Of a stretch of DNA of 64,000 nt, positions 4,498-63,400 are shown piece by piece. Made by a program: the position numbers and the translations under genes. How positions within the stretch are numbered: the first letter of the stretch is position 1; every line of letters begins with the position of its first letter. A model generated the notes under the pieces. The model was not told where the DNA came from and ran no database searches. It saw only the letters and a program-made list of their open reading frames with translations. This stretch comes from Pseudomonas sp. B20(2017) (GTDB lineage: Bacteria > Pseudomonadota > Gammaproteobacteria > Pseudomonadales > Pseudomonadaceae): NCBI RefSeq assembly GCF_002113125.1, contig NZ_NEJP01000024.1:1-64000 (forward strand). Reading direction: 5' to 3'.

Positions 4498-5979
4498 TCA
4501 GGCGATGGCGCCCAACAGCTTTTCCCACTCTTTGTTTTCTTTCTTCGACACGCCGCCCAGCAGGTCAATTGCCTGGCGCAGACGGAAACGGGTCAGGTCC
4601 GGCCCGAGGATTTCCATCGCATCGAGTACCGACACCGAACTCGCCTGCCCGGTGATCGCGGCAAACATCAGCGGCATCGCGTCACGCAGCTTGAGCTCAA
4701 GCGATTCGACAACCGCCTGAATCGTCGCGGTGATGCTGTCCTTCTCCCACTGACGCAGGCTTTCCAGCTTCCACAGGATCAATTGCATCAACTGACGAAC
4801 CTGATCGCCCGAAAGTTTTTTCGACTCGAACAGCTTGGCATCCGGACTCACGCCACCGGCGAAGAAGAACCCGGCCAGCGGTGCAACCTGGCTGAAGGTC
4901 TCTACGCGGCCCTGAACGTGCGGCGCGATCTTCATCATGTATTCGGAATTGAACGCCCACTTTTGCACGCGAGCGGCGAACTCTTCCACCGGCAGATCAC
5001 GCAGCCACTGGCCGTTGAGCCACGACAGTTTCTCGATGTCGAAAATCGGCCCGCCCAGCGACACGCGCTTGAGGTCGAAGTTGTCGACCATTTCCTGCAG
5101 CGAGAACTTCTCCCGCTCGTCCGGCATCGACCAGCCCATGCGGCCCAGGTAGTTGAGCATCGCTTCCGGCATGAAGCCCATGCGCTTGTAGAACGTCACC
5201 GACGTCGGGTTCTTGCGCTTGGACAGTTTGCTCTTGTCCGGGTTACGCAGCAGCGGCATGTAGCACAGCTCCGGTTGTTCCCAGCCGAAATACTCGTAGA
5301 GCAGGATCAGTTTCGGCGCCGACGGCAGCCATTCTTCACCACGCAGAACGTGAGTGATGCCCATCAGGTGGTCGTCGACCACGTTGGCCAGGAAGTACGT
5401 CGGCAGGCCGTCGGTCTTCATCAGCACTTGCATGTCCATGCGATCCCACGGGATCTCGACGTCGCCACGCAGCATGTCCGGCACCACGCAGACGCCTTCG
5501 CTCGGCACCTTCATGCGGATCACGTGCGGCTCACCAGCAGCCAGGCGACGGGCGACCTCCTCCTTGGACAACAGCAGCGCCCGGCCGTCGTAGCGCGGGG
5601 TTTCGCCGCGAGCCATTTGCTCGGCGCGCATCTGGTCCAGCTCTTCAGCGGTGCAGAAGCACGGGAAGGCGTGGCCCATGTCGACCAGTTGCTGGCAGTA
5701 CTTCTGGTAGATATCGCCGCGCTCGCTTTGACGGTAAGGACCGTGCGGGCCGCCAACGTCAGGGCCTTCGCTCCAGTCGATACCCAGCCAGCGCAGGGCG
5801 TCGAAAATCTGTTGTTCGGACTCGCGGGTCGAACGCAACTGATCGGTGTCTTCGATCCGCAGGATGAACTCACCGCCGTGCTGCTTGGCAAAGCAGTAGT
5901 TGAACAGTGCGATGTAAGCGGTACCTACGTGGGGATCCCCGGTAGGCGATGGCGCGATGCGAGTGCGGACGGTGGTCAT
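4498..5979 (-). CDS. gltX: Glutamyl-tRNA synthetase
   Basis: A class I aminoacyl-tRNA synthetase that charges tRNA-Glu. The 493-residue length is usual for Pseudomonas GltX. The N-terminal Rossmann domain has the HIGH-equivalent in [11 protein letters not shown] (about residues 9-19), the KMSKS-equivalent is KLSKRKN near residue 250, and the C-terminal helical half is the anticodon-binding domain. The frame extends to 6135, but [14 protein letters not shown] at 5979 is the conserved start. Its neighbours upstream of its stop are two tRNA-Glu genes, so substrate and enzyme genes sit together. Confidence 0.97.
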
Positions 5980-44067: not shown

Positions 44068-47000
44068 ATGAACGACTTACTCGATGATGAGGTACTGGCA
44101 CTGCTGATGGCAGATGCCGGCGAACACTCCCAAGGCATTCCTGCCCGTGCCCGTCCGGCCCCGGCGCCGCTGTCTTTCGCTCAGCAGCGATTGTGGTTCG
44201 TGCAGCAACTGACCCCCGACAGTGCCGCCTACAACCTGCCGCGCGCGGTGCGCATCACAGGCGAGCTGCAACTCTCGCGTCTGGAAGCGGCGCTGAACAA
44301 GGTCATCGAGCGCCATGACATCTTGCGCAGCGCCATCGTCGAGATCGACGGCATCGCCATGCAGGTGCTCGACGAACAGGCCACGCTGACCCTGGGTCAT
44401 GAAGACTTGCGCGATCTGAACGCCGAGCAACGGGAACAACAGGTCACCCGCCGCATTCACAACGAAGCCGGCCGTCCATTCGATCTGGGCCAGGCCCCGT
44501 TGATGCGGGCGACGCTGTTGCAGGTCGCGGACGATGAACACGTGCTGCTGCTGAACATGCACCACATCGCGTCGGACGCCTGGTCCAATGCGATTCTGCT
44601 GCAGGATCTGGGACAGGCCTATGCACGCGCCGGCGCCGGCGACTTTTCACCGCTGCGCCGTCCGGGCATTCAATACGCTGACTACGCCACATGGCAGCGC
44701 GGCGAATACCTCGACAGTGCCGCTTGCCGCACCAGCGCCGAGTACTGGCAGAACTACCTCGGACAGGCCTTGCCGCCCCTCGACATGCCCGTGGACTTCC
44801 CCCGCAGCGAGCAGCACAGCCATCCGGCGGGCAAGCATGATTTCAGTCTGCCGGCGCCTCTGGCCCAGGCTCTCAACCGGTTCTGCCAGCAGCACGGCCT
44901 GACGCCGTTCGTGGTAGCGCTGGGTGCCTGGCAACTGCTGCTCGCGCGCTACAGCGGCCAGCACGATTTCACCGTGGGCGTGCCCAACGCCACGCGCAAT
45001 CGCAGCGAAACCCAGGAATTGGTGGGCTTCTTTGTCAGCACCCAGGTCTACCGCGTCCGCATCGACCCGCAAATGTCGACCAAGGATTTTCTCCAGCGCC
45101 TACGTCAGGAAACCCTGGCGGCGCTGGATCATGCCGACTACCCGCTGGAGCTGAGCTTCGACGACTTGCAGTTGCAAAGTAGCCAGCAGATCAATCCGCT
45201 GTTTCAAGTGCTGTTCAACTGGCGCACCGACGCCGCCAGCGCGGTGCCGCTGACGCTGGGCGATCTGGCGCTGGACTTCCTCGAAAGCGGCACCCGTCAG
45301 GCGAAATTCGACCTGTCGCTGGACGTCAGCTATTCGTTGCGCGGAATCGACGCCAACATCGAATACAGCAGCGATTTGTACACCCCGGAGACTATCGAGC
45401 GACTGGCCGGGCACTGGCAAAACCTGCTGCTGGCCCTCACCGAAGACTCGACCCGCGCCCTTGGCGAACTGCCGCTGCTGAGCAAGGACGAACAACGCAC
45501 GCAGCTTGAGCAATGGAACCCGCCAGCCGTGCCGTTACCCGCCGAAGGCGTGCACCAGTTGTTCGAACATCAGGCCGCGAACACACCGGACGCAATCGCG
45601 CTGATCTGCGACGACGTGCAACTGAGCTACGCCCGACTCAACTCGGCAGCCAACGCACTCGCACACATATTGATCGAGCGTGAAGTCGGCCCGGAAGTTC
45701 GGGTGGGCATCGCTGTGGAACGTTCGGCACAGATGATCATCAGCCTGCTGGCGGTGCTCAAGGCCGGCGGCGTGTATGTACCGCTCGACCCCGATTACCC
45801 GCAGGATCGCCTGACGTGGATGATCGAAGACAGCGGCTTGAGCGTCCTGCTGACCCAGCGCTCGCTGCTCGAACGCCTGCCTGCGGTGCCGGCGGTCAGC
45901 GTCCTGTGCGTCGATGAACTCGACCTGCTGGAGGCGCAGTCCATCGACAACCCGGCCTGCCGCACACAGAGCGATAACCTCGCCTACGTGATGTTCACCT
46001 CCGGCTCCACCGGTCGCCCAAAAGGCGTGGGCATCACGCAGGGTGCACTGACCCGCCATGCTCAGGTCGCCCTGGAATTTCTCGGCCTGACGCCACAGGA
46101 TCGCTCCCTGCAATTTGCCACCTTCAATTTCGACGCCTTTGTCGAACAGCTTTACCCGGCCCTGATCTGCGGCGCTTCGGTGGTATTGCGCGGACCGGAC
46201 ATCTGGGACAGCGAAACCTGGTATCGCCAGTTGCTCGACAAGCGATTCACCGTCAGCGACCTGACGACCACCTACTGGAACATGCTGGCCAAGGACTTTG
46301 CCGCCGCTGGCGAACGTGACTATGCCGATCTGCGGATGGTGATCGTCGGCGGTGAAGCCATGCCGCCGGAAGGTGTTGCGGCCTGGGGCCAGGCCGGTCT
46401 CGGCCATGTGCGCCTGCTCAACACCTACGGGCCGACGGAAACCACCGTCAGCTCGACCGTGCTTGATTGCAGCGACTACGTCACCGGGCGCACCGCCCTG
46501 CCGCGCAGCATGCCGATCGGGCGTCCGCTGGGCGGGCGCGCCATCTATCTGCTGGACGCCGGAGGTCAACCGGTGCCGGTGGGCGTCGTCGGCGAGCTGG
46601 TGATCAGTGGCGAACTGTTGGCCCGTGGCTACTTCAAACGCCCGGATCTGACGGCCGAACGGTTCATGCCCGATCCGTTCAGTCGCGAAGGTGGGCGCCT
46701 CTATCGCACCGGCGATCTGGCCCGACATCGCGCCGACGGCGTCATCGAGTACGTCGGCCGCCTCGACCATCAGGTGAAGATCCGTGGGTTCCGCATCGAA
46801 CTCGGAGAAATCGAATCGTGCCTGCTGCAATCCCCGGCCGTACGCGAAGCGCTGGTGATCGCGCGGGAAGGTTCCGCCGGCCTGCAACTGACCGGTTACG
46901 TCGTGGCCAGCGCCGGCGCCTTGAGCGACACCCAGCGCCTTGAACTGCGCGACACCCTCAAGGCCGAACTCAGAAGCCGTTTACCCGCGTACATGGTGCC

Positions 47001-48240
47001 CAGCCATCTGATGGTGCTGGACGCAATGCCCGTCAGCCCGAATGGCAAGCTGGATCGCAAAGCCCTGCCGTTGCCGGACACCAACCAGGCACAAGCCGCG
47101 TTCAAGGCGCCCGAAACGGCGCTGGAAAAAGCCCTCGCCGAACTCTGGCAAGAGTCGCTGAAGGTCGAGCGAGTGGGCCTCGACGACAACTTCTTCGAAC
47201 TGGGCGGGCATTCGATTCTGGCCATTCAGTTCATCGCCGCACTCAATGCACGGCTCGGCATCAAACTGGCGCTGCAACAGATGCTCGCTCACCCGACAAT
47301 CGAGGCGCTCGCGCGATTCATCGCCATGGAGCACCAGCAACAGGCGCAATGCGTGGTCGAACTCAGCACCGCCGGTTCGTCCGCCCCGCCGCTGTTCTGC
47401 CTGCACCCCAGCGGCGGCATCGTGTTCTGCTATCAGCCACTGGCCAAACGCCTGAGTCCCCATGCCCGCACTTACGGGGTCATGCACAAGGGGTTTGCCG
47501 ACAAGGATTCGAACGCCCAGACCTGGGCCGAAATGGTCGCTGAATACACCCAGCAAATCGTTGAAAGACAACCGGTCGGCCCGTACCGACTGATGGGCTG
47601 GTCGCTGGGCGGCGCGATTGCCATGGACGTGGCCGCCGAGCTGGAGCGCCAGGGCAAGGCCGTGACGTTCCTCGGTCTGGTCGACACCACGCTGCCGGAC
47701 AGCGCACTGCCGGCGGATGTGCCGCGCAAACCGCTGGAGGAAGACAACCCGGACCACTTCAGTGCACGCAACGAACTGTCGGTCGCCGTGGAAATGTTCA
47801 GCCTGATGTTCGCCCACCTGGAGGAGCCGGCGGCACGTTTCATCGCCGATCACCCGGAAGTCGACCTCAAGGGCTTCTACCACTGGGCCAGCCAGCAAGC
47901 GTCCACCCGCGAGGAAGACATGGTGGCGACCCTCGAAGCGATCCGTCAGGAAATCATGAACGCCCAGGCATTCTCCATCCATGATCGGCTGGTGAAATCC
48001 TTTGATGCTTTTGTGCTGCCGACCCTCAAGGTCGAGGCCAGTTGCTGGTGGTCGCTGTCCCACAAGACGCTGGAACAGGTGCTGCATTCGGAACAGGTCT
48101 TGCGCGAACACACGGTCAGCGGCCAAATACAGGGTTCGGTGCATTCTCCCCTGCCGCACCGCAGCATGATCTATGGCGAGTCCTTGCTGGAGTCCTTCGA
48201 AGCGGTGTTCCTTGCCTGCGAGGCCGCGCGGCGCGACTGA
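44068..48240 (+). CDS. Terminal pyoverdine NRPS module, C-A-T-TE
   Basis: 1390 residues. An LCL-type C domain (LSFAQQRLWFVQQL; HHIASDA near 164, so the usual final Gly is Ala) is followed by A at about 500-1000 (TSGSTGRPKG near 645; FDAFVEQLY near 690). T has DNFFELGGHSILA near 1042. TE has GWSLGGAIA near 1178. My reading of the A-pocket code is D-A-E-D-I-G-T-V-S-K. Its two acidic residues at pocket positions 239 and 278 imply a basic side chain, most like Lys codes I know; (hydroxy)Orn is the alternative. As the only TE in the window it should release the peptide. It follows pvdE by 133 bp with no iron-starvation box. Confidence 0.92.
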   Translation: MNDLLDDEVLALLMADAGEHSQGIPARARPAPAPLSFAQQRLWFVQQLTPDSAAYNLPRAVRITGELQLSRLEAALNKVIERHDILRSAIVEIDGIAMQVLDEQATLTLGHEDLRDLNAEQREQQVTRRIHNEAGRPFDLGQAPLMRATLLQVADDEHVLLLNMHHIASDAWSNAILLQDLGQAYARAGAGDFSPLRRPGIQYADYATWQRGEYLDSAACRTSAEYWQNYLGQALPPLDMPVDFPRSEQHSHPAGKHDFSLPAPLAQALNRFCQQHGLTPFVVALGAWQLLLARYSGQHDFTVGVPNATRNRSETQELVGFFVSTQVYRVRIDPQMSTKDFLQRLRQETLAALDHADYPLELSFDDLQLQSSQQINPLFQVLFNWRTDAASAVPLTLGDLALDFLESGTRQAKFDLSLDVSYSLRGIDANIEYSSDLYTPETIERLAGHWQNLLLALTEDSTRALGELPLLSKDEQRTQLEQWNPPAVPLPAEGVHQLFEHQAANTPDAIALICDDVQLSYARLNSAANALAHILIEREVGPEVRVGIAVERSAQMIISLLAVLKAGGVYVPLDPDYPQDRLTWMIEDSGLSVLLTQRSLLERLPAVPAVSVLCVDELDLLEAQSIDNPACRTQSDNLAYVMFTSGSTGRPKGVGITQGALTRHAQVALEFLGLTPQDRSLQFATFNFDAFVEQLYPALICGASVVLRGPDIWDSETWYRQLLDKRFTVSDLTTTYWNMLAKDFAAAGERDYADLRMVIVGGEAMPPEGVAAWGQAGLGHVRLLNTYGPTETTVSSTVLDCSDYVTGRTALPRSMPIGRPLGGRAIYLLDAGGQPVPVGVVGELVISGELLARGYFKRPDLTAERFMPDPFSREGGRLYRTGDLARHRADGVIEYVGRLDHQVKIRGFRIELGEIESCLLQSPAVREALVIAREGSAGLQLTGYVVASAGALSDTQRLELRDTLKAELRSRLPAYMVPSHLMVLDAMPVSPNGKLDRKALPLPDTNQAQAAFKAPETALEKALAELWQESLKVERVGLDDNFFELGGHSILAIQFIAALNARLGIKLALQQMLAHPTIEALARFIAMEHQQQAQCVVELSTAGSSAPPLFCLHPSGGIVFCYQPLAKRLSPHARTYGVMHKGFADKDSNAQTWAEMVAEYTQQIVERQPVGPYRLMGWSLGGAIAMDVAAELERQGKAVTFLGLVDTTLPDSALPADVPRKPLEEDNPDHFSARNELSVAVEMFSLMFAHLEEPAARFIADHPEVDLKGFYHWASQQASTREEDMVATLEAIRQEIMNAQAFSIHDRLVKSFDAFVLPTLKVEASCWWSLSHKTLEQVLHSEQVLREHTVSGQIQGSVHSPLPHRSMIYGESLLESFEAVFLACEAARRD

Positions 48241-48402: not shown

Positions 48403-50883
48403 TCAGAACTGCGGGGTGTACTTCACGGTGAACATCAGGTTGCGAGGGTCACCGAAGTTGTTGTTGCCATCGAGCTGGTTGTAGCCGGCCGAGATGTACT
48501 TCTTGTCGAACAGGTTGTTGGCGTTCACCGCCAGACCGATTTCCGGCGTCAGCTGGTAGCCGACACGGGCGTTCCACACGGTATAGCCCGCCACGTCGTA
48601 GGTGCCTTCGTAACCCAGCGTGTGGCTCTGGGTGGTGAAGCCCAGGCCGGTGCTGACACGGCTCCAGTCGCCAGGCAACTGGTAGTTGGCCCACATGCGC
48701 AGCATGTGTTTAGGCGTCCAGGTGCTGAACACACGACCTTCGTTGGTCGGATCTTCCAGGTACTTGGTGGTGTTGTAGGTATAGCCCGCGAACAACTGCA
48801 GGTTCTCCACGACTTCGCCGCTGATTTCCGCGTCGATACCCTGGCTGCGAACCTTGCCCGAGGCCTTCGAGCAGTACCAGCCATCACACTCCATGCCACC
48901 GGCGATGTCGTTGACGGCACGGTTTTCCTGGTCGTAGCGGAAGACGGCCAGGGAGGTGTTGACCCGCCCGTCCATCAGCTCGCCCTTGAGGCCGATTTCG
49001 TAGTTGCTGCCGATCACTGGCTTGAGCACGGTGCCGCCGGAATCGCGGTTGGTCTGCGGCTGGAACACATCGGTGTAGCTCGCATACACCGCCCACTCGC
49101 GGCTCAGGTCATAAACGATACCGGCGTAAGGCGTGACTTCCCCGGTTTCGTTCGAGGTGCTTGGATCGTTGGGGGTAATGCCGCTGCTCGTCTGGGTTTT
49201 CGATTTGTAGCTGTAGTCGTACCAGCTGACACGGGAACCGAGCACCAGCGTCAGGTCGTCGACCGGCTTGACTCGCCAGGTGCCGTACAGACCTTTCTGG
49301 CGAATGTCGTACTTGCTCAGCGTGCCGCGACCACCTGTGGCGCTGATCAGGCTTTCGTAGCTGATGTCCGGACGGTTGTGATTGAGGTCGAAGATCGAGT
49401 CGCTGCTGTTGTTGAACGTACGGGCGAGCTGGTCGTCGGTTTCGATCTGGGAAAAGTTGCCCCCCAGCATGACTTCCTGCTGCATCGAGAAGGCTTCGAA
49501 CTTGCCGTTCAGGTTCATGTCCAGGCCGACCTTGGTGGAGTCAAAATCGGTCACGAAGTCGGCGTACTGCACGCCGGTGCCATCCGCCTCGAGGCCGTCA
49601 CCGGCGCTTTGTACGCGCTGGTTTTTCGCCTTGTTGCTTTCGGTCATCTGCACCGCGCCGACCTTGAACGCCCAGTCGTCGTTGAAGCGGTGTTCAAGAT
49701 CCGCATACACCGTGGTGACGTCGATGTCCGAGCTGTTCCAGCTCGAGCCGGTGTAGGTGGAACGCTTGATATCCGGCATCTTGCCGTCGGCGTAGCGTGG
49801 CAGGCCGCGAATGGTCGGACGCGAATCGCCATCGGAACGGCTGACTGCCAGGCCCAGGGTGGTGTCATCGCGCAGGTCGATGTCCAGTGCGCCATACAGC
49901 GAGAGGGTGCGGCTCCACTCGTAATCGATGAAGGAGTTGCTCTGGTCCTGGTCGGCGACGACTCGGCCGCGAATCGTGCCGGCCTGGTTCAGCGGGCCGC
50001 CTGCGTCCACTTGCATGCCGTAGTGGTCCCAGGAGCCGGCCTTGCCGGTCACGGTGACGGTCGGCGCGTTCTGGCCACGCTTGCGCACCAGGTTGATCGC
50101 GCCACCCGGGCTGCCGGTGCCTTGCAGCAGGCCGGAGGCACCGCGCAGGATTTCCAGGCGATCGAAGAAGATCAGGTCCTGAGTCGCCCAGTTGCCCAGC
50201 GAGTAGGTGTTACGCGGGATCGGCACACCGTCGTATTGCCAGTCGTCGATCTGGAAACCGCGCGAAGACACGATCAGGCCCTTGCCGACGCCTTGCAGGC
50301 CTACCACACCGGTGGTCTGGTTGAGCGCGTCCTTGAGGTCGACCAGATCCTGATCGTCCATTTGTTTGCGGGTCATCACCGTGACCGACTGCGGAATCTC
50401 CTTCAGGGTGTGGGTGCCCTTGCCGATGGTCACGGCGTTGGAGGTGTACGAGTTGCTGCCTTCGGTGGTCGCATTCGCATGCTGCGCGCTGATGGTGGTC
50501 GCGCCCAGTTCCAGGCCTTCGGTGGCCGTGCCGCGCACCAGCATCAAGGTATTGCCTTCGAAGCTGTAGCGCACGCCGGTGCCCTTGAGCAATTCGGTGA
50601 TGGCCGCCTGTGGGCTCATCTTGCCGCTGACACGGGTGCTTTTCAGACCGGCCATGTCATCGGCGTTGTAGATCACTTGCTGGTTGGTCTGCTGACCGAA
50701 CGCCTGCAGAGCTTGTGGCAGCGATTGCGCAGGAATGTTGATGGTGAAATCTTCAGCCATCACCTGCGAGCTGAGCGGCAACACGCAAACCAGTCCCAGC
50801 CCGGTCAGCACTCGGCGCGAACGCAGGCTGCGGGACATGACGAGTGCCTTGAACAGAGGTTTCAACTCATGAATTGCTGACAT
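48403..50883 (-). CDS. fpvA: Ferripyoverdine TonB-dependent receptor with signalling domain
   Basis: 826 residues from ATG at 50883. The signal sequence ends near SSQVMAED. An STN signalling domain (about 45-120, FTINIPAQSLPQALQAFG) precedes a TonB box region and the plug (IPQSVTVMTRKQMDDQD, then GLLQGTGSPGGAINLVRKR). The 22-strand barrel ends in the aromatic FTVKYTPQF. It imports ferripyoverdine and should signal through an FpvR-type anti-sigma to FpvI. No exact iron-starvation box precedes it. It matches FpvA by order in the locus; ligand variant cannot be told from sequence alone. Confidence 0.94.
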   Translation of the reverse strand: MSAIHELKPLFKALVMSRSLRSRRVLTGLGLVCVLPLSSQVMAEDFTINIPAQSLPQALQAFGQQTNQQVIYNADDMAGLKSTRVSGKMSPQAAITELLKGTGVRYSFEGNTLMLVRGTATEGLELGATTISAQHANATTEGSNSYTSNAVTIGKGTHTLKEIPQSVTVMTRKQMDDQDLVDLKDALNQTTGVVGLQGVGKGLIVSSRGFQIDDWQYDGVPIPRNTYSLGNWATQDLIFFDRLEILRGASGLLQGTGSPGGAINLVRKRGQNAPTVTVTGKAGSWDHYGMQVDAGGPLNQAGTIRGRVVADQDQSNSFIDYEWSRTLSLYGALDIDLRDDTTLGLAVSRSDGDSRPTIRGLPRYADGKMPDIKRSTYTGSSWNSSDIDVTTVYADLEHRFNDDWAFKVGAVQMTESNKAKNQRVQSAGDGLEADGTGVQYADFVTDFDSTKVGLDMNLNGKFEAFSMQQEVMLGGNFSQIETDDQLARTFNNSSDSIFDLNHNRPDISYESLISATGGRGTLSKYDIRQKGLYGTWRVKPVDDLTLVLGSRVSWYDYSYKSKTQTSSGITPNDPSTSNETGEVTPYAGIVYDLSREWAVYASYTDVFQPQTNRDSGGTVLKPVIGSNYEIGLKGELMDGRVNTSLAVFRYDQENRAVNDIAGGMECDGWYCSKASGKVRSQGIDAEISGEVVENLQLFAGYTYNTTKYLEDPTNEGRVFSTWTPKHMLRMWANYQLPGDWSRVSTGLGFTTQSHTLGYEGTYDVAGYTVWNARVGYQLTPEIGLAVNANNLFDKKYISAGYNQLDGNNNFGDPRNLMFTVKYTPQF

Positions 50884-51145
50884 CGTGCTCTCTATTATTG
50901 GTCGAAGTGGATAGTCCGATGGGCCGACGGGCCCACCGCTGCCTGCACAGTTGAACCGCTTGCTGTCGACGGCCTCGAAGCCGTGTTTCAGTGCGCGGCC
51001 GACCGGCCCCTCCCCGGGCGCGGTCCACTGGCGGGACAACGGAAAATTCTTTTTTGCCAAACAAACCTGGTGCCTTTGGCTACCCTGCCCCAACCCGATT
51101 TGCTCACATACCTAAGTAAGACGTGGCACCTCCGAAAAACCGGAA

Positions 51146-51224: not shown

Positions 51225-54200
51225 TCAACCGTTCTGAGCCGCCTTAGCGGCCTGCAACTGGCGCGCCTGCTCAGCCAGCCGCGCCTTGTCTTCCGGGCTC
51301 ATGGCATCCATGCGCAAGCGCACCTGGGCGAGTTTCTCCAGTTGCCCGGGGCTGCTTTCCACCGCCCGCAAGGCGAGCGCCAGTGACGCCACGGTCGGAT
51401 GATCGAACACCAGACCCGGATGAACATCGCACTGCAACAGCTTGCGAATCCCCGCCACCAGTTTGATCACCAGCAACGAATGGCCGCCGGCTGCAAAAAA
51501 GTCGCGATCGATTCCCAGCCGTTCAAGCCCGAGCAATTGCCCCATGCGCGCAGCAAGCAATTGTTCCAGCGCATCACGCGGCGCCTGACCCTCATCATCC
51601 GCCGCACTCGCGGCCAACTGCTGCAAGGCCTTGCGATCGATCTTGCCGTTGGCCAGTCGCGGGAAGCGTTCGAGCAGTTGCAGATGTTGCGGCACCATCA
51701 CGCCCGGCAGGCGCGCCGCCAGTTCATTGCGCAGCGTCTGCGGCAGATCGCTCGTGACACCCTGCGCCACGGCAAAGGCCAGCAGCCCTTGCTCGGCAGA
51801 AGCCGCCGGCAATACCAGGGCTTCGCTCACCTGCGGCAGACGCAGCAGTTCAGCTTCGATCTCCGCCAGCTCGATGCGGAACCCGCGCACCTTGACCTGC
51901 TGATCGCGACGACCGTGCAACTGGATCGACAGATCCGGGCGATAGCGCGCCAGGTCACCGGTGCGATACAGGCGCTGCGCCGGATCGAACGGACTCTGAA
52001 TGAAAGTCTGTGCATCGGCCGGAGCATTGAGATAACCCCGGCACAACTGCGCACCGCCCAGATACAGCTCACCGATGACACCCACCGGGGCCAGCCGCAA
52101 GTCGGCGTCCAGCACGTAAACCTGATTGTTACCCAGCACCTGACTCAGCGCCGCGCAGTCCGCAATGTCACCGGACAAGGACAGCGGATGAACCAGCACG
52201 CCCACCGTGGATTCGGTCGGGCCATAGTGGTTGAACACCCGGCAGTCACTGCGCAGACGAGCAATGCGCTCGATCAGCGGCGCGGCAATCGGTTCGCCAC
52301 CCAGAATCAGCGTGCCCGGCACCGTCGCCCGCTCACCGTCAAGCAACGCTGCCAGATGCGAAGGTACGATTTTCAGGCAGTCGATCTGCTGTTGTTGCAG
52401 GTAGTCGGCAAACAAGGCGCCATCCTGCATCTGCTCATCACTGGCAACATGCAGCGTCGCACCGTTGAACAGGGCACCGAACAACGCGGTGTTGCCCAGG
52501 TCCGCCGCCACCGTGGAGCTGAAACCGACGTGACGGCACGACGCCAGACCCAGCGCTTCACTGGCCTGCGCCGTGTAGTTGAGCAGTTGCCGGTGTTCGA
52601 TCACTACACCTTTGGGCACGCCGGTCGAGCCGGAGGTGAACAGCACATAAGCGATGTCGTTACCACGGGTTTCCAGCGCCGACAGCGGCGCATCTGCCGC
52701 CCCGGACACTTCGGCCAACGTGCTCGCCTTCAGCGGTTGACCTTCCCAGCCGCCCGGATGCGCGGCATCGGTGAGCAACAAGGCAGCGCCCGCCTGTTCC
52801 AGCATCAACGCCTGTCGGGCCTGCGGCCATTGCACATCGAGCGGCAGATACGCCGCGCCGATGCGCCACGCCGCGAGCATCGCAATCACCAGATCCGCCG
52901 AACGCGGCAGCGCCAACGCGACAATGGCGTCACGCCCCAGGCCTTGCGCAATCAAACCTTTCGCCAGTTGCTCGACCTGCGCCTGCAACTGGCTGTAACT
53001 CAGCTGTTGCTGGTTGTCGGTCAAGGCGATGGCCTCCGGAGTCCGGCTCGCAAAATCGGCGATGCGTTGTGGCAGATAACGGTTGTCGGCCAGCGCCTGC
53101 ATCGGGGGATTGATCGCCAGCAGTCGCCGGGTTTCGGCGGCGCCCAACAGGTTGAGCTGCGCCAGCTCGGCTTGCGGTTGAGCGACGATGGACGCGAGCA
53201 GCACACCGAACTGTTCCAGCACGGTACGTGCCACTGCCGTCGGATAACGGTCGCCGGCAAAGTTCAAGCGCAACGCTTCCAGACCGTCAGCGTCGTTCAG
53301 TTCGACCTGCAGCGACCACTCGAAAGCATCTCGTTGAACGAGCGCAACAGGATCCGGCGTCCAGCGCAGGCCATCGACCGTTTCCGTCCTGATCGTGCGA
53401 CCGAGGGCAAAACCATAAGCCGGACGCGCCGCTTCGGCAGCCAGCTCCGGTGCCCAGTATTCCTGCCACGTGCGTTGTTCTTCCAGCGTGGCGTTCAGCT
53501 CGACCAGCCACTGGCTGAACGTTGTTGTACCCGGCAGCGTCACTTGCAACGGCAGGGTCCGCTCGAACACCCCGGTGGCGCGGGCAAAATAGTCATAGTC
53601 GGCACGGCTGTCATGACGCACGCCGACCAACATCTGATCACGCCCGCTCAAGCGTGCGAGCAACACCCACCACGCACCTTGCAGCAGTGTGGCGAGAGGT
53701 TGTTCAAGGGTCTCGGCCAGGCGCTGCAAGCCGTCACGCAGCGCGGGTTCCAGCGTCAACGATTGCCGTGCGTCAGCCGCCGAAGCACCGCCGCTGATCC
53801 GCGAAGCCAGCCATGGCGTGGCCGTGTCAGCCTGCACGCCGTGCAGGTGGTTCTGCCAATAAGAGCGCGCGGTGGCCGCGTCTTCATCGAGCACCACTTC
53901 GCTGCGCCATTCCAGGTACTGAGCGAATTCACCCGCCTCGTCCTCTTCCGTCGCCGGCGCCTGACCACAGGCCTGCTGCAGGTGTTGGCGGATCAGGTTG
54001 AGCGTCGGTTCATCGGCACTGTGCCGGGCGACACCCAGCACCAGTTGCCATTGCTGTGGCGCCAGGCGGTACAGCACGGCCTGGGTGTTCTGCGATTCAC
54101 CGATCACGAATGCCCGGGCCGCCCATTCCTCGATCTTCGCCCGGACCTCATCCGCCGACTGCTCACCGCTCTGCACCGTCAGAGGAAAGCGTTCGGCCCC

Positions 54201-54452
54201 CTCGGCCCGTTGCCGCCAGCCATGGAAACCCGCCACCTTGACCAGCCGCGCCAGCAGCATCGACTGTTGCACCAGCAGCGTGTCCAGCGCCGCTTGCAGA
54301 CGCTGCGGGTCGAGGTCACCGTCGATGACCAGACTCAGCCAGCGCAGCGCCTCGCCGCAGGTCGCCGTGGTCGACAAGCGTTCAACCACCGCCTGCTGCT
54401 CGGGGGTCAGGGCGAAACCCGGATCCTGCGTGTCCATCGATACGTCGTTCAT
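51225..54452 (-). CDS. Pyoverdine NRPS: interface domain-A(Asp)-T
   Basis: 1075 residues. Residues about 10-450 are a condensation-superfamily domain without the catalytic HHxxxDG (the site reads VARHSADEPT near 145); this fits the 'interface' domain described for siderophore beta-hydroxylase modules. The A domain (about 460-900; TSGSTGVPKG near 605) gives the pocket code D-L-T-K-I-G-H-V-G-K, the classic Asp code. T has DFFAAGGHSLLVIK near 985. A charged helical tail (about 1035-1075, PEDKARLAEQARQLQAAKAA) ends the protein with no E or TE domain. Its ATG overlaps the upstream NRPS stop by 4 bp. Confidence 0.9.
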   Translation of the reverse strand: MNDVSMDTQDPGFALTPEQQAVVERLSTTATCGEALRWLSLVIDGDLDPQRLQAALDTLLVQQSMLLARLVKVAGFHGWRQRAEGAERFPLTVQSGEQSADEVRAKIEEWAARAFVIGESQNTQAVLYRLAPQQWQLVLGVARHSADEPTLNLIRQHLQQACGQAPATEEDEAGEFAQYLEWRSEVVLDEDAATARSYWQNHLHGVQADTATPWLASRISGGASAADARQSLTLEPALRDGLQRLAETLEQPLATLLQGAWWVLLARLSGRDQMLVGVRHDSRADYDYFARATGVFERTLPLQVTLPGTTTFSQWLVELNATLEEQRTWQEYWAPELAAEAARPAYGFALGRTIRTETVDGLRWTPDPVALVQRDAFEWSLQVELNDADGLEALRLNFAGDRYPTAVARTVLEQFGVLLASIVAQPQAELAQLNLLGAAETRRLLAINPPMQALADNRYLPQRIADFASRTPEAIALTDNQQQLSYSQLQAQVEQLAKGLIAQGLGRDAIVALALPRSADLVIAMLAAWRIGAAYLPLDVQWPQARQALMLEQAGAALLLTDAAHPGGWEGQPLKASTLAEVSGAADAPLSALETRGNDIAYVLFTSGSTGVPKGVVIEHRQLLNYTAQASEALGLASCRHVGFSSTVAADLGNTALFGALFNGATLHVASDEQMQDGALFADYLQQQQIDCLKIVPSHLAALLDGERATVPGTLILGGEPIAAPLIERIARLRSDCRVFNHYGPTESTVGVLVHPLSLSGDIADCAALSQVLGNNQVYVLDADLRLAPVGVIGELYLGGAQLCRGYLNAPADAQTFIQSPFDPAQRLYRTGDLARYRPDLSIQLHGRRDQQVKVRGFRIELAEIEAELLRLPQVSEALVLPAASAEQGLLAFAVAQGVTSDLPQTLRNELAARLPGVMVPQHLQLLERFPRLANGKIDRKALQQLAASAADDEGQAPRDALEQLLAARMGQLLGLERLGIDRDFFAAGGHSLLVIKLVAGIRKLLQCDVHPGLVFDHPTVASLALALRAVESSPGQLEKLAQVRLRMDAMSPEDKARLAEQARQLQAAKAAQNG

Positions 54453-57400
54453 GCTCCGGTTTCCTCGGTATTCAATGCGTCCTGGGCGTTCGGTTCGGTC
54501 GACGCCGGGCGTGCAAGGCTGCTGTGGTCATACATGTCACCCATGGCGACGACGATTTTGCGCGGCCCCTCGAAAGGATCGCGGGCATGGGCCACCAGCA
54601 TGTTGTCGAGCAGGATCACATCGCCCTTCTGCCAGTCGAAGCGCACCGCGCACTCTTCGTACAGATCACCGATGCGCTGCATCACTTCGTCCTCGATCGG
54701 TGTGCCGTCGCCGTAGAACACATGACGCGGCATGCGCTCCAGACCGAACATCGACAGCAGGTCTTCACGCACATCTGGCTCCAGCCAGTAGATGTGGTGC
54801 AGTTGCACCTGGTTGAAGAACGATTTCGCGCCAGTGATTGGGTGACGGATCACCGCCGGCCCAGGGGTGCGGGTCTGTAACTCGTTGTTGTCGAGCCAGC
54901 GCCACTGGATACCGCCGGCCCGGCAACGGGCCTCGACTTCGGCGCGGTCTTCGGTCTTGAAGAAGTGCTGCCACGACACATCGAGGTTGTCGGTAAAAGT
55001 GCGCACGTACAGCAAGCCCTTGGACTCGAACTTGTCGCGCAGGTCCGCCGGCAGTTTTTCGTACATCAACCGGCAATCCACCACCGGCGTCGCACCACCG
55101 ACCGGCGCGGCCACTTCGCAATAGAACATCTGCTTGCGCGGCCAGCGATCCTGATGGGAGCTCTCGTTGTGGAACAGGATCATCTTGCGTTCCGGGTACG
55201 GCGTGGAGCGGTAGGTGTTCTTGCCGCCCTCTTTCTTCGGCAGGTCGCCGTACTGGCCGTACAGCCCCGGCTGGACCGCTTCGGCGAAGGCTTCGAAACC
55301 CTGGATGCCATCCAGCTCGAAACCGCGGAACAGGATGCCGGCGTGTTCGGCCAGCTTCTGCTCGATCAAGGGCCGGTTGTGGTGGATCCACTCGACCAGA
55401 TCCAGATGCGGCTCGTTCGGCTCCATCAGCAGCGGGAACGGCTGTGGCGCGCACAGCAGCGATTCACGCACAGGTTGCGGGCGAACCTTGGCGACCGGGG
55501 TGGCGGAACGTTTGAGGAACTTGCCGAGCTTGTCGGCCTTGGCTCCGGGGGCGGCGGTGGACGCGGTGGCCACTGCGCGGTTGTCGACTGGCATGCTGAT
55601 AGCTCCCAATTGAATGTCCTGATCAGCGACGATCTGTTCCAACAGGGCTATCCAGGCCTTGACCAGGTACTGAATGCGCTCGTGTCCGAACAAGGTTGTG
55701 GCGAATTGCCAATTACCCAGCAATTGCCCTTCTTCTTCGTCAACGAACAATGCCATGTCGAATTTAGAATGCGTCTGCAGTGCCGCCAGCGGCTCGACGC
55801 TCAGGTCACCCATCGATTGCGTGCGTCCCGGCAGGTTGTTCATCACGAACAACACCTGCACCAGCGGGTTCATGCCCTTGTGCCGAGGCACGCCACAGGA
55901 CTCGACGATCATGTCCAGCGGCAGGTCCTGATGCTCCAGCGCACCCAGCAGGTTGTCCTGGGTGCCGGCGAGGAATGCCGAGAAGCGTGCTTGCGCATCG
56001 AAGCGTGAGCGCAGCGGCAGCACGTTGACGAAAAACCCGATCAGGCGCTCCAGCTCCGGCTGCTCACGCCCGGCGACGTCGGCGCCGACCAACACATCGT
56101 CACGGCCGCCGAACCGATGCAACAACACCTGAAACGACGCCAACAGCGTGCTGTACAGGGTCACACCGGCTTCACCCGACAATTTGCGCAGTGCCTGGCT
56201 CAAGTCCGGTGTCAGGCGGAACTGCACCGCATCGCCATCGTAGGACGCGGACTGCCCGCGCGGCTTGTCCAGCGGCAGATCGAGCTGGCCGCTGTAGCCA
56301 TCCAGCCGCTCCTTCCAGTACGCCGCCTGCTGGCCGAGAATCCCGCGTTGTTCGAGTTCCTGCTGCCACAGGGCAAAGTCGGAGTACTGCACTTCCAGCG
56401 CCGGCAGTGGCGTCGCGTCGCCCGCCTTGCCCAGTTCGTAGATCTGCACCAGTTCATTGATCAGCACCCCCATCGACCAGCCGTCAGAGATGATGTGGTG
56501 CATCGAGAACAGCAGCACATGCTCGGTCGCCGACAGATGCAGAATCCGTCCACGCCACAGCGGCGCCTGCTCCAGATCGATCGGTGTGCGGGCGTTGTCC
56601 AGCGCCGCTTGCGCCACATGTTCCTCCTGGGCGCTGCGGGACAGGCCGGACAAGTCGATGACCGGGAAGTCCACCTCGACCTGCTCGCAGATCACGGCAA
56701 TCGGATCGCCTTCATCATCCTGTGAGTACGCCGTGCGCAGCACTTCATGCCGCTGCACGACCTCGGCAAAACTGCCCACGAACCGCTCGGCCGACAGCTC
56801 GCCGCGCAAGCGCAAGGCCAGCGGCATGCCGTAGGCGGAACTGCCGCCGGACAACTGCTCGGCCACCCACAGACGACGTTGCACCAGCGACAGCGGTGCC
56901 GTCTGCTTACTGCCAAAAGCCTTGAGCGGCACGCTCTGACTGCCGGCGCCGACGTCTTCTTGGGCCTGACTCATCCAGGCCGCCAGATCCTTCAGACGCG
57001 GATGGTTGAACAGATCCCGCAAACTCAACGGGCTGCTGCCCAGTTTGCGCAAGCGCGATATCGCCTGCGTCGCCAGCAGCGAGTGGCCACCCAGTTCGAA
57101 GAAATGATCCTCGCGGCCCACGCGGTCAAGCTCCAGAACGTTCTGCCAGATCGTCGCGATCTGCTGCTCCAGCGCCCCCACCGGCGCGACAAACTCACCA
57201 CTCGCGGCGCCCGCTTCGACGCCAGGCAGTGCCTTGCGATCGATCTTGCCGTTGGGAGTCAGCGGCAGGCTGGCGAGGAACAAGACATGGGCCGGGATCA
57301 TGTAGTCCGGCAAATGTTCCTTCAAACGAGCCTTGAGCTCGTCACGCAGCACACCCTGCGCAGTCGAATCACCGCCGGCCACAGCAGGATCGTCGTAAAC

Positions 57401-60400
57401 CACATAAGCCACCAGTTGCGCACTCACCGCCCCCGGTTGCGCAATCACCAGCGACTGCTGCACACCCGGCACCTGCATCAGACGGGCCTCGATTTCTCCC
57501 AGCTCGATGCGGAATCCGCGGATCTTCACCTGATGGTCGATACGGCCGACGTACTGCAAGGTGCCGTCGGGCTGATAACGGGTCAGGTCACCGGTGCGGT
57601 ACAGGCGCTCGCCATTGCCGGCGAACGGATTCGGCACAAACTTCTCGGCCGTCATCGCCGCGCGGCCTAGATAGCCACGGGTAACCCCGGCGCCAGCCAG
57701 ATACAGCTCGGCGGCGACACCCAGCGGTGCCGGTTGCAGATCGGCGCCCAGCAGGTAGCTGGCGGTGCCGGTCAGCGGCCGGCCGATATTCGCCTGACCA
57801 CCCGCCTCGCGACGGGTCCAGGTCGAATAGGTGGTGTCTTCGGACGGGCCATAGAGATCGTAAACGTGCGCAATGTTTGCCTGCCGGTACAGCGTGTCCA
57901 CCAGGCTTTGCTTGAGCGGTTCACCGGCCAGATTGATGATGCGCACGCTCGACGGAATATCGCCGGCGTCCTGCAAGGCATTGATCGCCGAAGGCACGGT
58001 ATTGATCAGGCGCACCTGATCACGGGCCGGCAGATTCGGCAGTTCCAGGGCGTTGCGGGCGATGATCAGCGAGCCGCCGTTGGCCAGGGTCACGAACAGC
58101 TCCCACACCGACAGGTCGAAGCACACCGAAGTCGATGCCAGCACACCTTGAATGTCGTCGCGGCTGTAGACGCCCTTCGACCACTCAATCAGCGCCTGGA
58201 CGTTGCGATGGGTGATCGACACGCCTTTCGGCTTGCCGGTGGAACCGGAGGTGTAGATCACGTACGCAAGGTTGTCAGCGGTCACTGCGGTGGCCGGCGC
58301 CTGACTGCCATAAGCCGTCAGGTCCAGTTGATCCACGCGCAGCACCTGAGTGTCGCCACCGACATTGAGTTGCGCGGCCACTTCGGTCTCGGACAACAGC
58401 ACCCGTGCACGGCTGTCCTCAAGCATGTAGGCCACGCGATCCGCCGGGTAATCCGGGTCCAGCGGAACATAGGCGCCACCGGCCTTGAGCACCGCGAGCA
58501 AGGCGACCAACAGGCTGTCGGAACGCTGCATGGCCACGCCGACCCGCACTTCCGGGCCGACCCCGGATTCGATCAACCTGTGCGCGAGGCGGTTGGCCCG
58601 GGCATGGATTTCCCGGTAGCTGAACGTCTGCTGTGCAAACGTCACGGCCAGTGCATCCGGCTGGGCAGCGACCTGGCGGTCGATCATCTGATGGATGCAC
58701 AACGCGTCGACGTTGGCGCTTTCGATGTGATTCCAGTCATGCAACATCCGTTGTTGCTCGGCGTCTTCCAGCAGGTTCAACTCACCCAGGCAACGTTCGG
58801 CATTGACGCTCATCTGCATCAGCAGTTGCTGCAACTGGCACGCCAGTTTCACCACGCTGTTTGCGGCAAAGCGGTTGTTCTGATAACCGAAGTGCACGGT
58901 CATCTGCTCGTCGAGGTTGACCATCAGCGTCAGCGGGTAACTGGTCTGCTCGTAGCGGTCGGCTTCGCCGAACTTCAGATCCTGGGATTCGGCCTGTTGC
59001 AAGGCTTCGGCAATCGGGTAGTTCTCGAACACCAGAATGTTGTCGAACAGCGCTTCACCGCCCTGCCCGGCCCAACGCTGGATGTCGAACAGCGGCGTGT
59101 GTTCCTGCTCGCGCAGCAGCAGGTTCTGCGCCTGCACCTGTTGCAACCATTCGGACAACGGCTGCTCGGCACGCGGGCTGGCGATCACCGGCAAGGTGTT
59201 GATGAACAGACCGATCTGCCCCTCGACCCCGCTCAACTGCGCCGGACGCCCGGACACCGTGGCGCCGAAGCTGACGGTCGACTGGCCGGTGTAACGCTGC
59301 AACAGCAACAGCCACGCCGCCTGCACCACGGTGTTGACCGTGACTTTCTGCGCACGGGCGACCCGGTTCAGGTCAGCGGTCGCCACCGTGTCCAGCGTCA
59401 GCAGGTATTCGCCTTGCCCGGTGACTGTTGAATCGTCGGTGCGCGGCAGGCTGTCGCCCAGATAGGTCGGCGCATCGAAGTCGGCCAGTTGGCCCTTCCA
59501 GAAGTTCTCGGTGACCTGCGCGTCCTGCTGCGCCAGCCACTCAATGTAATCGCGATAACGACCGGCTCCGGCAAGCGGGGCCACGCCGTGGTAGCGCTGC
59601 AACACTTCGCCCAGCAACTGCGAGTTGCTCCAGCCGTCCATCAGGATGTGATGGCTGGTATAGATCAGGTGATAGCGTGCGGCGGCGACTTGCACCACCA
59701 CCAGACGCAGCAGCGGTGCGCTGTGCAGATCGAAACCCTGCACCCGTTGCGCCTGCTCCAGTTCACTCAAGGCCTGATCCAGATCGCTGCGCTCGCGCCA
59801 GTCCAGCACAGTGAACGGCACCGGCAGATCCTTGTGCACCACTTGCAGCGGACGAGTGAACTCACCTTCCCAGACAAAACCGCTGCGCAGTACGTCGTGA
59901 GCATCCAGTGCCGCTTGCCAGGCATCGCGGAAGCGCTCGACCTGCAGGCCGTCGACGGCGACGCACATCTGGTTGATGTAATCGCCCGCCTGCTGCTCGT
60001 ACAGGCTGTGGAACAGCATGCCCTGCTGCATCGGCGAGAGCGGATACAGATCCTGCACTTCCCGCGCCGGGATCGTCAGTGTGTCGAGTTGCGCCTGCGT
60101 CACGCCGGCCAGCGGGAAGTCCGAAGGCGTCAGGCCTTCGCTGCCCGGGGTCAGGCAATGGCCGATCAGTGCCGCCAGTTCGTCGGCGTAATCCTGTGCA
60201 AGCCGCTCGATGGTTGAGCTGTCGAAGCGCTCCGAACTGAACGTCCAACCCACACGCAACTCGCCGCCGTACACCTGACCGTTGAGGGTCAGCCAGTTGC
60301 CCAGTGGCGCGTCGGGGCTCTGATCAAGACCGGCGTTCTCCGGCGTCGGCGCGAACAGCGCGCCGTCATCGGCCTCGAAGCTGCCGTCGAACTGACCGAG

Positions 60401-63400
60401 ATAGTTGAAGGTGATGCGCGGGGTCGGCAACGCCTTCAGGCTGCTTTGCGCGTCGGCATCGCCGAGGTGACGCAATGCACCGAAACCGATGCCCTTGTTC
60501 GGGATCGAGCGCAGTTGTTCTTTGATCTGTTTGATCGAATCGCCCGCGCCTTCGGCCGGGGTCAGACGCACCGGGAACAGACTGGTGAACCAGCCCAAGG
60601 TGCGGGTCAGGTCGACGCCGTCGAACAGCTCTTCACGACCGTGACCTTCCAGTTGAATCAGCGTCGATGCGTGCCCGCTCCAGCGCCCGATGACCCGGGC
60701 CAGCGCGGTCAGCAGCAGGTCGTTGACCTGGGTGCGATAGGCCGCCGGGGCTTCTTGCAACAGTTGTCGGGTCAGGTTCGCATTGAGGCGGGTCTGCACG
60801 GTCTGCGCCAGACGGTTCTGTTGGCCGGCGTCAAGGCGTTTGCACGGCAGATCGGTGCTGACGTCGCTCAGGCAGGCCTGCCAGTACGCCAGTTCTTCCT
60901 GCAACGCCGGGCCGTTGGCGTAGCGTTGCAAGTGTTCGCTCCAGTCCTTGAAGGCACTGGTCTTGGCCGGCAGGCTCAGGGCCTGACCGTTGATGGCTTG
61001 CTGATAGGCGCTCTGCAGATCTTCCAGCAGAATCCGCCACGACACGCCGTCCACTGCCAGGTGATGGATCACCAGCAACAGACGTTGCGTGCCGTCAGCC
61101 AGGTTGGCCAGCACCGCCCGCAGCAACGGACCGTTTTGCAGGTCGAGGCTGCGCTGGGCGCGGTTGCCCAACGCTTCGAGATCCGCGATGTCGGCAATGG
61201 TTTCCTGCCAGAGCAGGTCTTGCGCCAATGCGTCCACCGCCAGGTGTTCGGCCTGCCAGACGCTGCCCTGCTGGCTGAAGCTCAGACGCAAGGCATCGTG
61301 ATGAATGACCAGCGCTCGCAGCACTTGCTCAAGCGTGTCGGCCGCCAGCCGTTGATTCGGCTTGAGCAGCACCGACTGGTTCCAGTGGTGACGCTCGGGA
61401 ATCTCGTCCTCGAAGAACTGCTGCTGGATCGGCAACAGCAACGCCGGGCCGGTGACCGGCTGCTGATCGATGGTCGACTCGCTGTCACCGATCTGCGCCA
61501 CCAGTGCCAGACGCTGGATGGTCTGGTGCTGGAACAGGTCTTTGGGATTCAGGCGGATACCGGCCTGACGGGCACGGCTGACCACCTGGATCGAGATGAT
61601 CGAATCGCCGCCCAGCTCGAAGAAGTTGTCGTTCAGACCGACTTGCGGAAGCTTCAGCACGTCTTGCCAGATCTCGGCCAGACGCTGCTCCATGACGCTT
61701 TGCGGCGCCTGATAAACCTGTTGCGACTGACTGGCGTCCGGCGACGGCAAGGCACTTCGGTTGAGCTTGCCGTTGGCGGTCAATGGCAATTGTTCGAGCA
61801 GCAACAGGTGCGCCGGAATCATATGATCCGGCAGGTTTTCCTTGAGTTCGGCGCGCACGCGGTCGCGCCACTCGGCTTGTTCGACGGTGCTGGCTTGCAG
61901 CACCTCGGCATTGCTCGGCACCAGGTACGCGACCAGTTGCTGACCGCTCAAACCCGGTTGCGCCAGCACCACGGCCTGACGCACGGCGGATTGCTCCAGC
62001 AACTGCGCTTCGATCTCACCGAGCTCGATGCGGAAACCGCGAATCTTCACCTGATGGTCGATCCGCCCGATGTATTCGATCACACCGTCGGCGCGATAGC
62101 GCGCCAGGTCGCCGGTGCGATACAGACGCCCACCATCGGCGGCAAACGGATCGGGAATAAAGCGCAGCGTGGTCAGGTCCGGACGGTTCAGATAACCCCG
62201 GGCCAGACCGGCACGACCGACGTACAGCTCACCGATGCAGCCCTTGGCCACCGGGTTCAGGTCGCCATCGAGCAAGTACCACGACAGGTCAGGGATCGGC
62301 TCGCCGATCGGACTGCTGGCGTCACGTTGCAGATCGGCCAGCGAAATCGGCCAATAGGTTACGTGAACCGTGGTTTCGGTGATGCCGTACATGTTGATCA
62401 GTTGCGGCGTCTGATCACCGAATCGCTCGAACCATGGGCGCAGGCTCTTGACCTCCAGCGCCTCGCCGCCGAACACCACGTAACGCAGCGACGGTTGCAT
62501 CGCCGCGTGTTCCGGGGCGCACGCCACTTGCATCAGTTGCTTGAACGCCGACGGTGTCTGGTTGAGGACGGTGATCCCTTCACGGCACAGCAAAGCGTAG
62601 AAATCTTCCGGCGAGCGGCTGGTCTCGTACGGCACCACCACCAGTTTGCCGCCGTACAGCAGCGCCCCGAAGATCTCCCACACCGAAAAGTCGAACGCGT
62701 AGGAATGGAACAGGCTCCACACGTCCTGTGGGCCGAAATCGAACCATGCATCGGTGGCTTCAAACAGGCGCAGCACGTTGCGGTGAGCCAGCAAGGTGCC
62801 CTTCGGCTGACCGGTAGAGCCGGAGGTGTAGATCACGTAAGCCAGATTGTCCGGGCTCATGTTCACTTGCGGATTGGCGTCGCTGTAGCTTTCCAGACCA
62901 TCGCGATCCTGATCGAGCATCAGGCTGCGCACCGAGTCCGGCACCGGCAGACGGCCGAGCAGATGACTCTGGGTCAGCAGCAGGCCGATGCCGCTGTCGC
63001 CGATCATGTAGGCCAGGCGTTCTTCGGGATAGCTCGGGTCAAGCGGCACATAGGCGCCGCCGGCCTTGAGGATCGCCAGCAGGCCGACCAGCATGTCCAG
63101 GCTGCGCTCCACCGCCAGGCCGACGCGCACGTCCGGGCCGACACCGCTGGCAATCAGCTTGTGGGCCAACTGGTTGGCACGGCTGTTCAGTTCACCGTAG
63201 CTCAAGACCTGCTCGCCATAGGTCACGGCAACCGCCTGCGGCCCACGTTCGGCCTGGGCTTCGATCAGCGTGTGCAGGCAGCGTTCGCTCGGGAAATCGA
63301 CGGTGGCCGGGTTCCATTGCAGCAGCGTGGCCTGATGCTCGGCGGCGTCATGCAGCGGCAGATCGGCGATGCGTTGTCCGGCGTCGGCGACGATGCCGTC

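Follow-up and report, generated by a model that had tools for sequence, protein, structure and literature searches.

A probable two-protein β-hydroxyaspartate module in a Pseudomonas pyoverdine assembly line, with a candidate internal start for its fused hydroxylase

Introduction

Siderophore β-hydroxylases of the IBH_Asp type, which come with interface domains, were reportedly described by Reitz et al. in 2019. In the glycopeptide synthetases, an X-domain in the last module recruits P450 enzymes. PMC12971057 names the IBH_Asp family and PMC12230676 the interface domain, while PMC7100376 assigns L-threo-β-hydroxyaspartate (OHAsp) to the fused TauD enzyme PtcB, with one sentence of its introduction stating the reverse. 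Here we analyze a module of this kind in the pyoverdine peptide synthetases of Pseudomonas sp. B20(2017) (GCF_002113125.1). The window is the first 64,000 nt of contig NZ_NEJP01000024.1, which has 90,197 bases, and some frames of the non-ribosomal peptide synthetases (NRPSs) run past the window end. The arrangement itself is known and widespread; the new feature is a candidate internal start ahead of the hydroxylase, absent from an earlier sequence-only reading of this DNA.

The module and its relatives

A scan of the contig for open reading frames (ORFs) finds three pyoverdine peptide synthetases in succession on the minus strand, NRPS1, NRPS2 and NRPS3. The module extends over the second and third, and its domains, diagnostic residues, Asp code and their conservation can be observed directly. 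Domains are abbreviated C (condensation), A (adenylation), T (carrier), E (epimerization) and TE (thioesterase).

54449-64000 in the window (frame 54449-68011 of the contig, 4520 codons), minus strand: NRPS2, second pyoverdine peptide NRPS, C-A(Gly)-T-C-A(Thr)-T-E-C-A(Ala)-T-C-hydroxylase
55586-56908, minus strand: terminal C domain, LCL-like, the catalytic C domain of the OHAsp module (PF00668, 379 bits; HHIISDG; identity matrix)
54449-55480, minus strand: Fe(II)/2-oxoglutarate (2OG) Asp β-hydroxylase domain of TauD fold (PF02668, 170 bits; 343-residue segment; H104/E106/H298/R300)
54449-54452, minus strand: ATGA stop/start overlap joining the NRPS2 and NRPS3 genes, preceded by GAGGA at 54466-54462
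51225-54452, minus strand: NRPS3, single-module interface-A(Asp)-T protein, 1075 aa
53073-54452, minus strand: interface domain, condensation fold with HHxxxDG lost (reads ARHSADE)
51642-53057, minus strand: A domain with code DLTKIGHVG (Asp), from profile match and code
51375-51557, minus strand: T domain (PF00550)

Read together, these features very probably make up an IBH_Asp-type β-hydroxyaspartate module of the pyoverdine assembly line. The sequence-only reading had proposed an upstream NRPS ending in an intact C domain and a dioxygenase, a following NRPS opening with a C-like domain devoid of HHxxxDG, an A domain with the Asp code and a 4-bp gene overlap, and each of these was recovered (HHIISDG with a 170-bit PF02668 match, ARHSADE, DLTKIGHVG, and ATGA at 54452-54449). 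Its span for the module, 51225-55480, covers the hydroxylase and the interface-A-T protein and leaves the catalytic C domain (55586-56908) outside.

The hydroxylase sits at the C terminus of NRPS2 directly after the C domain, as in the IBH_Asp type, and has the HxE...H and Arg features of the Fe(II)/2OG TauD fold. H104, E106, H298 and R300 are present without exception in 81 sequences, namely our own and a named set made up of the best 80 of 200 relatives, from Pseudomonas, Azomonas, Halomonas, Cupriavidus, Variovorax, Inquilinus and others; the nearest named hydroxylase in this set is that of P. koreensis (99%). The structural model (mean predicted local distance difference test, pLDDT, 84.9) is closest in fold to Arabidopsis At3g21360 (1y0z), followed by taurine dioxygenase.

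Within NRPS3, the C-like, A and T domains occupy residues 41-445, 466-937 and 966-1026. The first has a condensation fold lacking HHxxxDG, as an interface domain does: the second, catalytic His of the motif is missing in all 80 interface domains (79 named and our own), and the Asp is retained in all of them. It scores lowest (99.7 bits) among the genome's 28 condensation-family matches and is 16-21% identical to each other C or E domain of the assembly line. Its model (pLDDT 90.3) takes up the condensation fold, with 6p1j as best match (TM 0.79) and the X-domain structures 4tx2 and 4tx3, the latter with OxyB, also matched. A sequence search against solved structures returned nothing close to the interface domain, with ordinary C domains and the X-domain as best matches. 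The Asp-code A domain lies behind the interface, in the protein next to the hydroxylase, which is the partner arrangement of the IBH_Asp type. The listed Pfam and NCBIfam matches include no IBH_Asp- or interface-specific model, the published profile hidden Markov models being outside those scans.

In all 20 relatives compared, conservation within the module is lowest for the interface, although the hydroxylase, its partner, ranks first or close to first. Interface identity is 39-66% where hydroxylase identity is 77-95% in 18 of these relatives; in the other two the respective values are 92% and 99% (L085), and 37% and 73% (L121).

Our genus sample comprises 199 genomes, 101 of which hold a hydroxylase homologue. 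Of 82 loci examined, 44 are fused (the 30 closest and 14 more) and 38 are stand-alone. In the tree of these 82 hydroxylases, all 44 fused rows and seven stand-alone rows of ~60% identity form a 51-row branch with support 100/100, the seven lying inside the fused branch; the stand-alone rows of ~39-47% identity and the non-NRPS TauD enzymes fall outside. The hydroxylase thus groups with the fused siderophore enzymes and stands apart from TauD enzymes outside NRPSs and from stand-alone enzymes of the TBH-like kind. Grouping with the non-NRPS TauD enzymes is rejected on this tree. The sequence-only reading had staked its proposal on the hydroxylase not joining non-siderophore TauD enzymes, and the company found for it is that of fused, interface-linked ones; domains, code, overlap and the 100/100 fused branch all agree with the IBH_Asp/interface architecture it put forward. 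Some deep branches of the tree are long and their joins unsure, and it counts against the assignment that the subtype follows from architecture and grouping, with tree groups named by architecture and not by characterized references.

The division between two proteins, on which the earlier reading laid stress, is the normal form in this hydroxylase family. Among the 30 closest genus loci, our own included, the 4-bp overlap (29 ATGA, 1 TTGA) and the interface match are present in 30/30 and an upstream HHxxxDG in 29. The overlap recurs in 40 of the first 43 fused loci; in the 44th (L073) an interrupted interface-like stretch follows. An open frame longer than 300 aa precedes the hydroxylase in 79 of the 80 named relatives, the exception being L150, and HHxxxDG is found upstream in frame in 77. 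Three loci counted as fused have a short upstream frame without HHxxxDG (L102, 357 aa; L016, 357 aa; L155, 414 aa). In 79 of the 80 named relatives the hydroxylase is followed directly, at offsets of -8 to +25, by an ORF that lacks HHxxxDG; the 4-bp overlap is present in 56 of the 80. L153 is left out of the interface-ORF count, its sequence ending 260 bases past the hydroxylase stop, hence 79 examinable relatives. The full Asp code DLTK[IV]GH[IV]G is read in 77 of the 79 named interface-A-T ORFs and is partial in the other two owing to gaps. The split is not unusual, because 79 of 79 examinable named relatives start a new protein at the interface; an unusual arrangement is ruled out by the same count.

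Farther afield, a class-level search gave matches in 11 of 369 genomes, our own included, with a single fused case outside the genus (G563, 65%). A search for unfused orthologues in 300 genomes of the order to which the genome of locus L147 belongs gave two matches, one in the L147 genome itself; the second, L172 (48%), is a fusion too, with a linker devoid of the motif described below. One Pseudomonas genome (G160) carries a fused hydroxylase and two stand-alone ones within ~33 kb (L038, L065, L066), a set that would suit a lipopeptide siderophore with several OHAsp residues. The hydroxylase ends in a tail, NTEETGA (54449-54475), that encodes the GAGGA ribosome-binding site of the NRPS3 gene and is kept in close relatives among the matches listed.

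The module would work as follows. The interface-A-T protein would load L-Asp onto its own carrier domain, and the interface, a condensation fold without the catalytic His, would recruit the Fe(II)/2OG hydroxylase of the upstream protein to form L-threo-OHAsp on the carrier. The upstream catalytic C domain would then couple OHAsp to the hexapeptide, and a Lys-type C-A-T-TE protein would add the last residue before releasing or cyclizing the chain. Hydroxylation on the carrier, its stereochemistry and the role of the residue as an iron ligand are what we infer from the observed parts. That the hydroxylase modifies a different residue or free Asp, with the interface merely a degenerate linker, is highly improbable, given an interface ORF directly behind the hydroxylase in 79 of 79 examinable named relatives, 77 with the full Asp code.

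The OHAsp module is not followed by an E domain, and the 79 named interface-A-T ORFs, at 682-1148 aa (median 1061), are too short for an extra one. The C domain of the last module is closer to the LCL-type (35-41%) than to the DCL-type (25-27%) domains of the line, these types being assigned from position. An L residue is expected because no E domain follows and the last C domain is LCL-like, and the expected product of the module is L-threo-OHAsp.

A candidate start inside the NRPS2 frame

Between the C domain and the hydroxylase, the NRPS2 frame contains a linker motif and, ahead of it, what resembles a translation start with a Shine-Dalgarno (SD) sequence.

55508-55540, minus strand: linker motif KADKLGKFLKR between the C domain and the hydroxylase (pattern scan)
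55603-55607, minus strand: SD-like GGGAG (55607-55603) inside the NRPS2 frame, 8 bases before the internal ATG; anti-SD duplex -6.5 kcal/mol
55592-55594, minus strand: internal in-frame ATG, proposed start of the free hydroxylase
54449-55594, minus strand: putative nested gene for a free hydroxylase of 381 aa (MPVDNRAV...ETGA)

The conservation of synonymous codons suggests that the hydroxylase is probably made both fused and as a free 381-aa enzyme. More generally, fused siderophore Asp hydroxylases would appear, on balance, to be encoded twice, a conserved ribosome-binding site in the linker yielding a free form with KxDKLxxF near its N terminus. Such a free hydroxylase could act in trans on behalf of the interface-A-T protein and outnumber the giant NRPS. 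Estimated from length, the free form would be ~42 kDa and the fused one ~500 kDa.

The linker pattern K-x-[DNEQ]-[KQG]-L-x-x-[FLMIV] is present in 75 of the 80 named linkers (200 shuffles gave a mean of 0.36 and a maximum of 2) and in 0 of the 38 stand-alone enzymes. The motif was first spotted by eye and then tested, so that the pattern is fitted to the data; the internal start was likewise noticed and then tested. Ten of the 16 fused genus loci listed (L031-L045, L073) lack the strict pattern, namely L035 and L037-L045, and their sequences read alike.

The site ahead of the motif reads TTG GGA GCT ATC AGC ATG in the NRPS frame (TTGGGAGCTATCAGCATG), and the predicted free product begins MPVDN. 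Its anti-SD energy (-6.5) is at least as strong as the -5.9 at the interface gene's own start. Across 40 aligned Pseudomonas-type loci, the Gly codon at the site is GGA in 29 of the 32 rows with Gly, although GGA accounts for 6.1% of the set's Gly codons and never exceeds 12.5% in any of the remaining 38 columns (of 39) where Gly is conserved. Ranked by rarity of synonymous codons, the site comes first of 790 five-codon windows over the C domain, linker and hydroxylase of these loci (1.60, against 0.96 for the next separate window). Its start codon is ATG in 36 of the 40 loci and GTG in the remaining four. In 52 internal C domains from these synthetases, the equivalent position has Gly encoded mostly by GGC (23 of 35) or GGT (11), and the start position reads ATG in 16 and TTG in 11. 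These codon-usage tests are free of the best-Met bias that enters the SD test: an SD of at least 4 bases precedes the linker Met in 56 of the 69 named loci having a Met (28/35 in L085-L123, 28/34 in L124-L164) as against 20.6% of 3119 control ATGs, a comparison that favors the site somewhat, its value being the best Met of a 32-residue stretch and the control single Mets. Outside Pseudomonas, 26 of 32 loci have an SD-preceded linker start. The site reaches -5 kcal/mol or better in 69 of 81 loci, in 37 of which the mRNA at the site is in the most open tenth of windows, and in 35 of 43 further genus loci, some probably of the same species. An SD and a start at proper spacing thus coincide with synonymous-site conservation.

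Several observations weigh against an internal start. The site is weak or missing (above -5 kcal/mol) in 12 of the 81 loci (L134, L136, L139, L142, L145, L151, L153, L154, L155, L161, L162 and L164), and eight of the 43 further genus loci are above -5 or lack a start codon (L034, L035, L037-L042). In our own genome, the openness of the site is only at the 26th percentile, and the SD is equally strong in two other of 42 windows. Only in 15 of 41 Pseudomonas-type loci and in 5 of 40 others does the linker window outrank every other window, with one expected in each group; it is often strong, yet not always strongest. Nor is Met in itself unusual at the corresponding place of C domains (16 of the 52 internal ones have it), and related loci do not count as independent cases. 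Part of this signal could also stem from an SD-like pause or from a fusion scar.

Each of these last two deserves separate consideration. The GGAG-type linker sequence might be a ribosome pause site that aids folding of the C domain before the hydroxylase, no free protein being made. In Pseudomonas the sequence does sit at the end of the C domain, and rare codons could slow ribosomes too. A pause, however, does not need a start codon, yet ATG or GTG stands at the position in 40 of 40 aligned loci; some lineages without the Met have GTG or TTG after an SD (L106-L108, L112, L159, L160), and the 52 internal C domains do not have such Gly codons among the commonest there. We consider a pause site unlikely. 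The internal start might otherwise be an unused scar from the fusion of an old stand-alone hydroxylase gene to the NRPS, as many non-Pseudomonas linkers read like gene starts (Met-Ser/Thr/Asn after acidic residues) and some lineages are without the site. A dead scar should decay, whereas the synonymous positions are fixed across Pseudomonas-type loci with C domains down to 51% identical to ours, which makes this explanation doubtful as well. A start in use remains the reading that we favor.

In one named relative, L150, a one-base difference from L148 around 4990-5005 brings the NRPS frame to a stop at a TGA that overlaps with the internal ATG. The L150 hydroxylase would then be a separate overlapping gene; this is a single draft contig, and the difference may be a sequencing error.

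The predicted pyoverdine

The last residue of the peptide would be added by a separate gene on the opposite strand, as at the loci L085-L121, where the terminal pyoverdine module is also encoded in this way.

44068-48240, plus strand: terminal NRPS, C-A-T-TE, code DAEDIGTVS (Lys-like; profile matches, code compared with PMC12195549 table 5)

In assembly order, the A-domain codes are DVWHVSLID, DGEACGGVT, DLWNNALTY, DILQLGLIW, DFWNVGMVH, DLWNNALTY, DLTKIGHVG and DAEDIGTVS. We take DVWHVSLID, DILQLGLIW, DFWNVGMVH and DLTKIGHVG to mean Ser, Gly, Thr and Asp. The relatives L092 and L093 have the codes Ser, DLWNNALTY, Asp (interface) and terminal Thr, and pyoverdines ending Ser-Ala-OHAsp-Thr are known (PMC9925543 table 1); DLWNNALTY is read as Ala because the two orders match. 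A single variable position separates DAEDIGTVS from DAEDNGTVSK, which codes for Lys in P. protegens Pf-5 (PMC12195549 table 5). DGEACGGVT is taken as hydroxyornithine (OHOrn) from its likeness to DGECCGGVT, found in minus-strand modules of L104, L115, L117, L120 and L121, which a pattern marks as TE modules.

The predicted pyoverdine peptide is Ser-AcOHOrn-Ala-Gly-aThr-Ala-OHAsp-Lys (AcOHOrn, acetyl-OHOrn; aThr, allo-Thr), with OHAsp at position 7. For its cyclic acetyl, succinate form, the computed [M+H]+ is 1176.481 with OHAsp and 1160.486 with plain Asp. The ring is perhaps closed between Thr and Lys, by analogy with two other pyoverdines in which this closure is known (PMC8888394). We found no OHAsp-Lys pyoverdine in the open papers searched. 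The pyoverdine A214 of P. brassicacearum is listed at m/z 1134.41 (PMC12971057). Two loci of that species, L094 and L099, carry the same module. The presumed A214 sequence, with OHAsp, computes to 1134.434 as the cyclic succinamide.

Terminal-module A codes vary among relatives with nearly the same hydroxylase (DAEDIGTVS, DADEVGVVD, DFWNIGMVH, DADEIGIVS, DGECCGGVT and others). The final pyoverdine residue looks easily exchanged because the terminal code differs among such relatives.

The surrounding locus

Two further genes accompany the module.

67993-80337 of the contig (frame), minus strand: NRPS1, C-A-T-E-C-A-T-E-C-A-T
48403-51093, minus strand: TonB-dependent siderophore receptor, FpvA-like by position (profile matches)

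Beyond the window, NRPS1 and NRPS2 apparently overlap by one base (contig positions 67991-67995), and a motif resembling the hydroxylase linker motif stands at the C-terminal end of NRPS1 (KLNKLEALLDDMEEV). The Pfam matches of the genes adjoining the NRPSs fit a pyoverdine cluster, the neighbors presumably being PvdA, PvdR, PvdT, PvdM, PvdN, PvdO and PvdE; the PvdP-like ORF gave no match in the Pfam scan. On contig C12 of the genome, a 4380-codon NRPS frame with four C-family matches presumably encodes PvdL; near it lies the gene for an acetyltransferase (PF13523, 197 bits). Boxes of the form TAAAT-N15-17-CGT are found upstream of pvdA, pvdR, pvdP, pvdM and pvdE, but this line of evidence is weak: none is found upstream of the first peptide NRPS, also with a looser pattern.

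Discussion

The module itself is ordinary: it adds one more pyoverdine with a predictable OHAsp ligand and is useful for siderotyping. If the internal start is used, the division of siderophore hydroxylases into fused and stand-alone needs rereading, because fused-type loci would supply a stand-alone enzyme as well, and one synonymous codon would offer a handle on the supply of a tailoring enzyme to a megasynthase. Searches of open papers for internal starts in NRPS genes gave no earlier report of this one. LmbN of lincomycin biosynthesis, where an internal start in a fused NRPS-related gene gives two protein forms by western blot (PMC4351081), is by analogy a precedent for a live start of this kind. 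It differs in being a carrier protein-isomerase fusion from Streptomyces, an unrelated enzyme.

With the IBH_Asp/interface systems, the locus shares the C-terminal hydroxylase fused to an NRPS, the dead C-like interface partner, the Asp module and the siderophore cluster. We found no architectural difference from them, and the available parts of the papers on them do not mention an internal start. Potashchelin PtcB is likewise a TauD enzyme fused with a C domain at the C terminus, acting on the Asp of the adjacent module and assigned to L-threo-OHAsp; potashchelin differs as a Halomonas lipopeptide siderophore that also has a stand-alone hydroxylase (PMC7100376). The Ser-Ala-OHAsp-Thr pyoverdines have OHAsp at position 7 of 8 and acetyl-OHOrn at position 2 (PMC9925543, PMC8888394), as predicted here, whereas the codes here predict Ser at position 1, Thr at position 5 and Lys at position 8. 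The glycopeptide X-domain (4tx2, 4tx3) is also a condensation-fold domain complexed with an oxygenase (OxyB in 4tx3), and the resemblance of the interface to it is one of function, not of family.

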